Shown in pieces: positions 59,758 through 63,546 of a stretch of DNA of 64,000 nt (position 1 is the first letter of the stretch; each line of letters starts with the position of its first letter). A program made the translations under genes and the position numbers. This DNA comes from Arthrobacter sp. B3I4 (GTDB lineage: Bacteria; Actinomycetota; Actinomycetes; Actinomycetales; Micrococcaceae): contig NZ_JAUSYK010000001.1 of NCBI RefSeq assembly GCF_030816855.1, forward strand, positions 620,001 to 684,000, read 5' to 3'. The notes beneath the pieces are model-generated. The model worked only from the letters and a program-made list of their open reading frames with translations, was not told the origin of the DNA and ran no database searches.

Positions 59758-61104
59758 CTAGAGCACGGAGGGCGCCGGTTCAGCGCGTCCGGCCCCGCCG
59801 ACGTCGATCTCTTCCGGGAATACCGTCCAGCTCCTCAGCGGTGACAGGATGACCGGCAAAGCCGAGGATGCCGCGATCAAAGCTGCTGTCCAAAGTACAG
59901 GTGCCTCTCCAGCAAGAAGCGCCAGGTAGCCACCCGTGAGACTGGCAACCGGCATCACGCCCAGGGTGACCAGGCGGTTTGTGGACATGACCCTGCCCGT
60001 CAGCCCGGGCGGGATAAGCCGGGGCAGAATGCCGGCTCCCGCCAGACCGGTCAACACCACGAAAAAGGACCAGCCGAACCCTGACAAGCCGACCCAGAAG
60101 ACGGCCTCCAGTCCCATGGAAGGGGCTGCCGGAACGAGGACCATGCAAGCCGCACCGGCCAGCCCGGCGATGATCTTCGTCCTCCCGATTCCCAAGCGGC
60201 TGGTGACGCCCGTGGCCAGCAACGAAGCCAGCAGGCCACCGGCGGCGGACACGGTACCAAGGGCCAGCACCTGGTCGACCGATAGGTGGAGAGTCTTGAG
60301 AATATAGACGACCTTCGCACCAGCCCCCCACATGCCGGCCGCGTTGAGCAGCGCCACTGAAACCATCAGTGTCCGCACAAGGGGGTGCTTGAGCGCGAAC
60401 GACGCGCCATGGCCAGCCTCGGCCCAGAAACCGGCGGGACCCGCGGACGGGGCCTTCTGCGGTTCGGGCAGCCAGCAGGTTACGGCGGCCGAGAATAGGT
60501 AGGCCACACCGGAAATGACCAGAACCACCGGCAGAGCCAACACCCTGATGAGCACTCCAACTAGTCCAGGGACCGTAACCGCCAGCCCACTTTGGACGGC
60601 CTGGATATGGGCGTAGCCCCGGCCGAGCTGCTGACCGGCTAGGAGTGTAGGCATTACCGCCGAGTGGGCAGCGGTAAAGAAGACGTCGGCAGTACTGACG
60701 ATGGCGGCAACGAGGAACAGCTGGCAAAGGCTCAGGGATCCCCACGCAAAAGCCAGGGGTACCGTCAGCACAGCAACCGCCCGGACAAGGTTGGCGCCGA
60801 TCAGGACCGGCTTCCGGCGCCGACGGTCCACCAGGACGCCCGCCGGCACGCCCATGAACAAGAAAGCGGCCATGCTAAGGGCGTTGAGGATGCCAGCTTA
60901 TAAGGCGCTAGCGCCAAGGACAGCCACCGCGACGACGGGCAGCACTGATCGGACGACGTCGTCACCAATCCCGTCGCCGATGGTCGCTATAAAGAGGCTG
61001 CGAAAAGGGCCACGGAGAAGTACCCGGGCAGGATCGGGGCCTCGGTCCTCCCGGTTCCGGCCGGAGCGGCTATTCTTGGTATCGCCAGCTTTGCGTAAGG
61101 TCAC
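59758..61104 (-). pseudogene. MFS exporter interrupted by an in-frame TAA codon
   Basis: A major-facilitator protein of about 448 codons. The N-terminal part reads LLRGPFRSLFIATIGDGIGD and then VLPVVAVAVLGASAL. It then meets TAA (complement of 60898-60900) and continues in the same frame as AGILNALSMAAFLFMGVPAGVLVDRRRRKP to the end. One C-to-T change (CAA or CAG to TAA/TAG) would explain it; the present codon is TAA. The start is probably GTG 61104, about seven bases after GACACT. Downstream of the stop, an internal ATG at 60873 could only give a truncated transporter lacking helix 1. It is divergent from a small regulator-like gene. Confidence 0.85.
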
Positions 61105-61105
61105 A

Positions 61106-61140
61106 CCTGACAGTGTCAGGTTAAGCCTGACGCTGTCAAC
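61106..61140. promoter_or_regulatory. Double palindromic operator and divergent promoter region
   Basis: CCTGACAGTGTCAGG (61106-61120) is a perfect palindrome around a single base. CCTGACGCTGTCAAC (61126-61140) is a near copy. Their centres are 20 bases apart, two helical turns. On the minus strand TTGACA (61134-61139) and GACACT (61112-61117), 16 bases apart, lie inside the two copies and would start transcription at the GTG of the MFS gene. Confidence 0.72.
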
Positions 61141-61159
61141 GGCGCCCGAAGGAGTATCA

Positions 61160-61531
61160 ATGCACAAGCACGACCCGGAACGCCCTTTTTGCTCCTTCTG
61201 CGGTCTCGGGCCAGCCCCCGACCGGCGGCTCGTAGCGGGTCCGGGCGTCTGTATCTGTGAACAGTGCGTGGCGAAAGCCCGGCAACTGCTGGGCGCGCCC
61301 GACGCTGCAACCACTTCGGACCGTTCGCTCGGGCCGGCTTGGGACCGTCTAAGCGATGCCGAAATCCTCGAGCACCTGCCGGAGGTCTCGCGCGTGGGTG
61401 CGCAGCTCGATGATCAGCTCAAACGCTGGGTGCTCGCAGCAAGGGAGCGGAGTATCAGCTGGTCCCGGATCGGCGAGGCATTGGGCATCACCCGGCAAAC
61501 CGCCTGGGAACGGTTCAAAACCATGGACTGA
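61160..61531 (+). CDS. Small protein with ClpX-type zinc finger and helix-turn-helix
   Basis: 123 residues. The first 40 are a ClpX-type C4 zinc finger: Cys11 and Cys14 in CSFCG, then RRLVAGPGVCICEQC with Cys33 and Cys36. There is no AAA+ domain. The C-terminal ISWSRIGEALGITRQTAWERF (about 99-119) is a strong helix-turn-helix. In ClpX this zinc finger binds adaptors and dimerises, so here it may be a dimerisation or adaptor-binding module on a DNA-binding protein. GAAGGAG lies six bases before the ATG. The gene faces the MFS exporter across a double palindrome, the usual place of a local regulator. Function not known. Confidence 0.82.
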   Translation: MHKHDPERPFCSFCGLGPAPDRRLVAGPGVCICEQCVAKARQLLGAPDAATTSDRSLGPAWDRLSDAEILEHLPEVSRVGAQLDDQLKRWVLAARERSISWSRIGEALGITRQTAWERFKTMD

Positions 61532-61678: not shown

Positions 61679-63546
61679 ATGGGAACCAGCGCAGCGGTCA
61701 CCTTTTCACCGGCCACCCGGCCGGCGAGTGATGGCCGATGCGCCCCGCCGCTGGAGATTGGGCCGACGACTCCATTGTTGGATGATGTGCTGGGCCAGTT
61801 GCGTGAGCTGACGGCAACCGCTGCCACGGACACCGCGGGGCTGGGCTTCCGCGCTGCGGCGGCGTACGCGGGGCAGATCGAGGAAGCCGGCCGTGCCCTG
61901 GAGTACCTGCAGGTTATGGCCGCCGGCGCGGTGGACCGGACCCGCACGTCCGCCCCGGACGCGGTCCCGGCCGGGGAAGACGGGTACCGCCGGACCGAGG
62001 ACTTCCTGCGGGACCGGCTGCAGATCAGCGCCGCCGAAGCGCACCGCCGCCTGTCCCTGGCCCGCACCGTGCTGCCGCGCACCGGGATCACCGGGGACCG
62101 GCTGCCTGCGGTGCATGAGGAACTTGGGGATGCGTTCGCTGCCGGGGACGTCCCGACCCGGTCAGCGACGATTATCAACCAGGCGTTGGAGCGGGTCCGG
62201 CCGCTGTGTGATGCGGAGACCGCGGCGCGGATGGAACACTCCCTGACCTGCGCCGCGGCCGAGCATGACCCGGACTTCCTGTCCCGTCTGGCCCGGCGCT
62301 GGTGGACGGCATCGACCAGGACGGCGGAGAACCTTCCGAGGAGCTCCTGCGCCAACTTCAGGGCGTGTTCATCCGCCGGCCCCGCCACGGGTTGCAGCAC
62401 CTGGAGATCTTCGCGACCAACGAACAGTTCGAACACCTCCTCACCGCAATGAACACCGCCACCAACCCCCGCACCCCCAACCCCGCCACCAGTACCAAAG
62501 AAACGGCAGGAACCGGCACCCGGGCGGCAACCGGCACCGGCACCCCGGCAACCGGCACCGCGGGCGCCGCGACAGGAGGAGCTGGCACCGCTGGCGCCGT
62601 TGGGGCTGGGTACGCAGGTGACCGGGCCGAGCAGGATGTGTTCGTTCCGGGTCTGGACTGGCGGTCGCGGCCGCAGAAACTCCTCGACGGTCTTGTCGGC
62701 GCTTCCAAAGTCGCCCTCGCCTCCGGCGGGATGCCCGCCACCGGCGGACTCCGGCCCCAGGTCATGGTCACCATCGACTACCGTGACCTCCTCGACCGCC
62801 TCCAAAACACCACCACCAATACAGCTGCCGACACAACAGCCACAGCCGGGACAACCGAGGCGCCGGGAGCCGGTGACGGTAACGCGTTCACCTTCGGCAA
62901 CAGCGGCACCACCAACGCCGGTGACGGTAACGGATTCAGCTTCGGCAACAGCGTCACCACCACCAACGCGGAGAGCGGTAACGGATTCAGCTTCGGCCAA
63001 GGCTTCGGGTGGGACACCGGCCAAAGCGCCGAGGGCGGTAAGGAATTCAGCTTCCGCAACGGCGGCAACACCACCGGCTTGGGGTCCCGGGTCAGCTGCG
63101 GCGGGGCCGGGCCGTTAGGGTTCACCGGAACCGGGACCCTGGCGTTCACCGGACCTGTCACGGCCTCAACGATCCGCAAGATCGCCTGCGACGCGGACAT
63201 CATCCCCGTCCTGCTCGGCTCCCAAGGCCGGGTCCTGGACATCGGCCGCGCCAGCCGGGTCTTCCCGCCCCACATCCGCAAAGCCCTCACTGCCCGCGAC
63301 CAGGGCTGTACCTTCCCCGGCTGCACCATCCCCGCGTCCTGGTGCGAAGCCCACCACATCACCTACTGGTCCCGCGGCGGCACCACCGGAACCGACAACG
63401 GAACCCTGCTCTGCTCCCACCACCATCACCTGATCCACAAAGAAGCCTGGACCATCCAACTGCGAAGCGGCGTCCCGTGGTTCATCCCGCCACCCCACCT
63501 CGACCCACGCCAAACACCAAGACAAAACCACTACTTCCGCTCATGA
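61679..63546 (+). pseudogene. DUF222/HNH endonuclease-like protein (13E12-type), single-base deletion
   Basis: The N-terminal part from ATG 61679 is DUF222 (LRELTATAATDTAGLGFRAA; RTEDFLRDRLQISAAEAHRRL). At about 62297 one base is missing in CCCGGCGCTGGTGG: the original frame drifts into WWTASTRT and stops at 62452, while the shifted frame continues DGIDQDGGEPSEELLRQLQG. Total length 1868, three times 622 plus two. The C-terminus has an HNH motif (GCTFPGCTIPASWCEAHH; then DNGTLLCSHHHHLIH). An Ala/Thr/Gly linker and FSFGN repeats lie between. These proteins are common and multicopy in this group; their nuclease role is unproven. Confidence 0.85.
62878..63063 (+). repeat. Four imperfect coding repeats (GNGFSFGN)
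   Basis: A unit around GGTAACGGATTCAGCTTCGG recurs at about 62878, 62926, 62977 and 63040, encoding GNAFTFGNS, GNGFSFGNS, GNGFSFGQG and GKEFSFRNG. Spacing is 48, 51 and 63 bases, all multiples of three. Confidence 0.8.

Follow-up and report, generated by a model that had tools for sequence, protein, structure and literature searches.

A ClpX-finger/HTH regulator and its predicted GTCAGG-N5-CCTGAC operator: a probable self-controlled switch and ClpX counterpart of ClpC2

We propose that a 123-residue protein of Arthrobacter sp. B3I4, in which a ClpX-type zinc finger is joined to a helix-turn-helix (HTH) domain, and the inverted repeat GTCAGG-N5-CCTGAC in front of its gene form a self-controlled switch, a reading that we regard as likely and in which the regulator would be the ClpX counterpart of mycobacterial ClpC2. 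Comparison with related loci suggests that the protein very likely binds the site at 61115..61131, that it probably represses its own gene, and that it probably also represses the divergent MFS gene in those relatives in which that gene is intact. The features concerned lie as follows in the window, the whole stretch of 64,000 nucleotides that was analysed.

61160..61531, plus strand: regulator gene, 123 aa, ClpX-type zinc finger and HTH (ORF read, Pfam)
61187..61291, plus strand: ClpX-type C4 zinc finger, residues 10-44 (Pfam; finger residues as in ClpX)
61418..61522, plus strand: HTH domain, residues about 87-121, recognition helix TRQTAWERF (homology to the ClpC2 N-terminal domain and RelI, 9SDC)
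61115..61131, no strand: predicted main operator, GTCAGG-ttaag-CCTGAC (genome scan and genus alignment)
61095..61111, no strand: predicted second operator, GTAAGG-tcaca-CCTGAC, with one mismatch, a weaker tandem copy 20 bp upstream
61106..61120, no strand: first palindrome of the sequence-only reading, made of the second operator's right half and the main operator's left half
61126..61140, no strand: near-copy palindrome of that reading, made of the main operator's right half and an unpaired half-site-like GTCAAC
61112..61139, minus strand: possible transporter promoter TTGACA-16-GACACT with a weak -10 (read from the sequence; missed by the consensus scan)
60901..61104, minus strand: MFS transporter frame, first part, GTG start at 61104 (ORF read; tblastn matches in relatives)
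59758..60873, minus strand: MFS transporter frame, remainder after the stop (PF07690, 3.1e-15; TIGR00900, 1.4e-33, below its cut-off)

Farther along, at 61679-63546, two long ORFs overlap in different frames; together they resemble an HNH-endonuclease repeat gene that a frame change has broken in two.

The inverted repeat between the MFS frame and the regulator gene

The sequence-only reading had described twin 15-bp palindromes at this locus, and both are present where it placed them: CCTGACAGTGTCAGG at 61106-61120 is perfect, in a 7-1-7 arrangement, CCTGACGCTGTCAAC occupies 61126-61140, their centres at 61113 and 61133 are 20 bp apart, and the start of the HTH gene at 61160 is 20 bases past 61140. 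Do these palindromes stand out from their surroundings? In a scan of the window, CCTGACNSTGTCA occurs exactly at a single place and gives 12 matches at up to two mismatches against 11.1 expected, while exact CCTGACNNTGTCA has two occurrences in the whole genome, one here and one within a long ORF that presumably encodes DNA polymerase I. The window contains 10 perfect 7-1-7 palindromes (shuffle mean 8.95) and three palindrome pairs with a copy of at least 11/15 within 60 bp (shuffle mean 0.97), and at least one such pair appears in 61 of 100 shuffles of the window. Twin palindromes 20 bp apart are not beyond chance within the window alone; the significance of the repeats arises only through comparison, and in a different register.

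The copy of GTCAGG-N5-CCTGAC at 61115-61131 is the only exact one found by the whole-genome scan, and its 12 specified bases are all invariant in the nine aligned genus loci, the window included. In the same alignment one genome (G043) no longer has the outer left half of the first palindrome, and the distance from CCTGAC to CCTGAC is 20, 21 or 22 bp, such that the 20-bp spacing of centres is not conserved. Because the 12 columns are invariant while the outer half is lost and the distance varies, conservation falls on the inverted repeat between the palindromes. This GTCAGG-N5-CCTGAC repeat, built from the inner halves of both palindromes, is the likely dimer site, instead of the 15-bp TGACA-N-TGTCA unit that had been put forward. 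In L005, L011-L014, L199, L228, L242 and L271, too, an exact site is accompanied by the GTAAGG variant of the second operator.

Matches that span both finger and HTH, the only ones taken into the count, were found in 10 of 150 genus genomes, the window's included, at E 2.3e-21 or better; most of the other listed genus matches are the clpX finger, and a few are partial HTH matches. Eight of the nine other genus loci have the same block in the gap that separates the MFS frame from the regulator gene. The ninth, L016, has a regulator with a stop, no site and no MFS match within its 3.3 kb. Separately, loci L017-L023 and L032 show matches to part of the HTH, without the finger or outside it, and these could be relatives or fragments. 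One explanation of the conservation is that it reflects the transporter promoter and coding start without any operator, and the conserved block does in part coincide with the start of the MFS frame (GTG or ATG) and its first codons. This is the remotest of the explanations considered, as the 12 invariant bases fall beyond that frame and appear again in front of the family gene at loci that lack an MFS gene.

The MFS gene itself is divergent from the regulator at all eight other Arthrobacter loci with the site. Compared segment by segment, the part of the window's transporter frame after the stop shares 37.5-76% identity with the divergent gene of eight of nine genus loci, and tblastn matches the first part of the frame in place in seven of the eight transporter-bearing loci (all but L011). 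Relatives have copies without such a stop, one of them a 444-aa frame in L005. In the window, the frame carries an in-frame stop at 60898-60900 (minus strand), either a real mutation or an assembly error, and one target of the regulator may therefore be dead in this genome. The minus-strand promoter described earlier is present as letters, with TTGACA at 61139-61134 and GACACT at 61117-61112 separated by 16 bp; its -10 element matches TATAAT at only three of six positions, and a consensus promoter scan of 61030-61230 returned no promoter. Since the GTG at 61104 lies seven bases past the possible -10, the MFS message may be leaderless.

Linkage of the site to the regulator gene outside the genus

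Homologues of the 123-aa protein number 302 at E <= 0.001. Full-length matches were found in 44 of 394 genomes of the class sample and 4 of 396 of the phylum sample, as well as in 3 of 246 and 9 of 148 genomes of two genus samples (g8 and g9, respectively); in the other 139 matched genomes of the phylum sample it is the finger part that matches, mostly in a frame about as long as clpX. Among 72 rows of sequence upstream of a family gene, GTCAGG-N5-CCTGAC is exact in 52, has one mismatch in 10 and two in 2, and has at least four mismatches in the remaining 8 (L016, L253, L277 and L279-L283); the row of L243 is only 158 bp long. Locus L253 was scored a miss in this tally on a wrong ORF, and two exact sites precede its real gene. 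With L236b (which repeats the L241 gene) and L241b (a stray row of 3,252 bp holding the site of the upstream copy) also dropped, the corrected tally of 70 rows reads 51 exact, 10 with one mismatch, 2 with two and 7 misses. L008, a contig as long as that of L005, and L197, taken as the window, were omitted. None of 38 upstream controls of clpX type comes within fewer than four mismatches of the site, none of the 72 rows has the reversed halves with fewer than three mismatches, and spacers of 0-4 and 6-10 give a single exact row in all (spacer 4).

Sites are often repeated: at least two, at up to two mismatches each, occur in 53 of the 72 rows (52 without the stray L241b), and at least two exact ones in 23, with neighbouring sites 18-38 bp apart. 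The cooperative two-turn geometry that had been suggested for the locus does not generalise, given these spacings and the genus distance of 20-22 bp. The idea behind it, that two TGACA-N-TGTCA palindromes two turns apart are the sites of cooperating dimers, can point to the presence of both, with 20-bp centres, in the window's genome and in the Arthrobacter MAG L005, which are also the only genus loci compared in which the twin pattern of CCTGACNSTGTCA is kept before the orthologue; a search for CCTGACNSTGTCA ahead of orthologues, as the sequence-only reading suggested, would thus not have succeeded. We consider it very unlikely, as the swapped halves CCTGAC-N-GTCAGG show no preferred spacer (at most 6 exact among 72 rows at spacers 0-10), it is the GTCAGG-N5-CCTGAC register that prevails in those rows, the distance varies, and the pair is not beyond chance in the window.

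The linkage of the 6-5-6 site to the ClpX-finger/HTH gene extends far outside the genus. Two copies of GTCAGG-N5-CCTGAC precede the gene both in a Nonomuraea gerenzanensis record (46% identity) and on a Streptomyces zaomyceticus plasmid (43% identity), and homologues with 37% and 36% identity on viral contigs have two exact copies (L039) and one exact plus one single-mismatch copy (L040). By this comparison, the earlier view of the divergent promoter region as operator-bearing appears sound, with the motif accompanying the regulator gene whether in Actinobacteria, on a plasmid or on viral contigs, and the adjoining ClpX-finger/HTH protein is by far the best candidate to bind the repeats, as had been supposed. 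Within one genus (L277-L283) the family gene is present with no exact upstream site; L278 has an upstream site with one mismatch, and L279, L281 and L282 have a related site 205-281 bp past the HTH start. Genome G904 carries two copies of the family gene (L236 and L241) about 1.6 kb apart, with the same operator at each.

The converse path, from site to HTH, was followed with the extended exact form TGTCAGG-N5-CCTGACA, whose outermost base pair the window's site lacks. This form occurs in 107 viral stretches, of which 14 have a match to the HTH profile, 11 of them within -400..+500 bp of the site; the HTH gene of L143 and that of L113 have the site downstream. HTH matches are found in 0 of 115 viral stretches with a spacer of 4, and in 0 of 120 among the stretches listed for a spacer of 6 (at least 120 stretches). 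The finger is absent from 10 of the 11 site-adjacent viral HTH proteins. Among 59 relatives' genomes the exact extended form is present in two, before the family gene in G014 and, in G016 (L565), with no HTH relative up to 1.5 kb away in either direction; the latter may be a chance occurrence or an orphan target.

Outside Arthrobacter, neighbouring ORFs were chosen by a rough longest-frame rule, and 46 upstream and 49 downstream ORFs were scanned out of 58 picks each. The Pfam family seen most often accounts for 3 of the 46 ORFs upstream and 2 of the 49 downstream, and MFS_1 is found in 1 of 46 and 2 of 49, respectively. As no family is common to the scanned neighbours, the first job of the regulator is probably its own control, as in ClpC2.

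The HTH domain and its operator bases

In the 123-aa protein, Pfam identifies zf-C4_ClpX (1.4e-11, residues 10-44), along with only generic HTH matches below cut-off over residues 82-122 and DUF6362, also below cut-off. Membership of the TetR family was considered and rejected, no TetR family having come up in the Pfam or NCBIfam results. A Foldseek search had no match at E <= 0.001, and a literature search found no published description of the ClpX-finger/HTH family. Profile comparison places the HTH more precisely: it is a homologue of the domain at the N-terminus of mycobacterial ClpC2 (hhalign 96.5%, E 8.2e-10, 40% identity over 55 columns), the ClpC2 side of the alignment being six short Clp_N proteins, four with the site and two (L556 and L559) without it. 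The family profile also matches the HTH of RelI (Rv2664, PDB 9SDC) at E 5.3e-10, and the RelI HTH is itself described as similar to that of ClpC2 in the available text of the RelI report (PMC13284704).

The recognition helix and the operator change together. Helices with RQS or KQS go with GTCAGG in 172 of 176 half-sites, and RQT helices, the window's type, do so in 10 of 10. For [KR]QAAW helices the 62 half-sites divide into GTCAAG (38), GTCAGG (22) and others (2), and [KR]QAAQ helices, from ClpC2 and one phage, have GTCAAC in 23 of 24 half-sites; a single GAQ phage protein has GTCAAT and GTCAAC. L141, which lies on the contig of L039, and the mistaken L253 ORF are not in this tally. Because its rows share ancestry and 10 viral-contig rows entered it on the strength of the motif itself, the co-variation cannot be counted as so many independent events. 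Five actinophage HTH proteins (L229, L230, L232, L233 and L561) likewise have GTCA-N9-TGAC nearby with differing inner bases, their half-sites being GTCAAC in Decurro, GTCAAG in BlueFeather, GTCAGG in PensacolaC28 and GTCAAT/GTCAAC in NBR1 and GMA5.

These observations bear on whether another transcription factor, such as a TetR-type or global regulator, owns the site. Inverted repeats of such length suit many repressors. Ownership by another factor is nonetheless highly improbable here, since the site accompanies the HTH on a plasmid, on viral contigs and in a phage without a common neighbour, helix and site vary in concert, and the genome holds one exact site.

Five of 11 short Clp_N loci (L550-L554) combine the ClpC2 HTH with two or three GTCAAC-N5-GTTGAC sites, and the other six have no GTCA-N9-TGAC within the range scanned. 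Both proteins, each with its own type of site, occur in 5 of 10 genomes (G244, G525, G1210, G1082 and G1121). Clp_N matches in the window's genome are confined to frames of 834 and 896 aa, and so no ClpC2 is seen there.

A proposed switch and its relation to ClpX, phage proteins, RelI and ClpC2

How might such a regulator work? We hypothesize that the 123-aa protein is a mimic of the ClpX zinc-binding domain joined to an HTH of the ClpC2/RelI kind, and that its dimer would bind GTCAGG-N5-CCTGAC and the weaker tandem site near the divergent transporter start, where it would repress its own gene and, in Arthrobacter, the MFS transporter. By analogy with ClpC2, a molecule that binds the finger, whether a natural product or a phage or host ClpX ligand, would release the repressor; release would raise the level of the regulator, which would soak up the ligand, and would switch the transporter on. 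The ClpX sequence is closely kept in the finger, and a sensor or sponge that also opens the transporter gene is therefore proposed. We give this role of the finger a chance somewhat below even, no ligand of the family having been found, and within the proposal only the operator part is well supported.

The finger could instead be a mere dimerisation or degradation handle on a repressor tuned by ClpXP turnover or by zinc, with no decoy role, and we give this a chance somewhat below even. ClpX zinc domains dimerise, and the finger matches structures of the ClpX zinc-binding domain, both of which would suit a handle. Against this stand the ClpX-like finger, in our judgement kept perhaps more closely than a bare dimer needs, and the parallel of ClpC2, whose Clp-like domain is described as sensing a drug (PMC10030653). 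Returning to the sensor and sponge, we tentatively suggest that Actinobacteria and some mobile elements carry a ClpX-finger autorepressor that senses or sponges natural products or phage proteins that target the zinc-binding domain of ClpX, that it is coupled to a transporter in Arthrobacter, and that its HTH superfamily has a readable helix-to-operator code, in which the residue after RQ or KQ goes with the fifth operator base. If this is true, a decoy-repressor may shadow ClpX just as one shadows ClpC1, and there may be compounds or phage proteins in nature that act on the zinc finger of ClpX. For the family itself (44/394 class genomes), a concrete predicted operator and a testable role are gained, and the co-variation permits site prediction for phage and bacterial relatives.

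Among known systems, ClpX has the C4 zinc-binding domain in common with the regulator, whereas its AAA+ module is absent from the 123-aa protein, to which an HTH is added (Pfam and NCBIfam). The phrog_686 'HTH DNA binding protein' of actinophages has the same HTH and no zinc finger; its relatives PensacolaC28 gp19 and 10 finger-less viral-contig proteins have GTCAGG-N5-CCTGAC nearby, while some phage relatives have GTCAAG, GTCAAC or GTCAAT. RelI is described as a short antitoxin paired with the RelS toxin and as having no inverted repeats within 1000 bp upstream, and a zinc finger is not mentioned in the available text of its report (PMC13284704); the regulator, in contrast, has a finger. Its upstream neighbour is a divergent MFS frame.

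The closest parallel is ClpC2 (Rv2667 family), which the available text of its report presents as an autorepressor and cyclomarin sponge with the operator CGTCAAC-n5-GTTGACG, often present twice, over a promoter whose transcripts are thought to be leaderless, and which is released from DNA when cyclomarin binds its ClpC-like domain (PMC10030653). Both proteins contain the ClpC2 HTH-bearing domain, C-terminal in the 123-aa protein and N-terminal in ClpC2, and both have a GTCANN-N5-NNTGAC (6-5-6) operator layout, often in tandem, with inner bases GG/CC at the regulator locus and AC/GT in ClpC2 (GTCAAC-n5-GTTGAC). The shared HTH suggests that ClpC2 contacts DNA through its N-terminal domain, whereas that text proposes contact in the C-terminal domain, where an arginine double mutant was tested (PMC10030653). 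The recognition helix lies at about residues 71-81 as counted on L552, and the published ClpC2 crystal construct (residues 4-72, 8ADA) therefore probably lacks it. The construct seems to stop before the helix; where ClpC2 touches DNA may have to be examined anew. Each protein also carries a domain derived from a Clp unfoldase, the ClpX zinc finger in the regulator and the ClpC N-domain in ClpC2. The 123-aa protein has no ClpC1-like N-domain (Clp_N), Pfam finding only zf-C4_ClpX and weak HTH families, and is therefore not filed as ClpC2; the divergent MFS gene, a feature of the regulator locus in Arthrobacter, further sets it apart from ClpC2.
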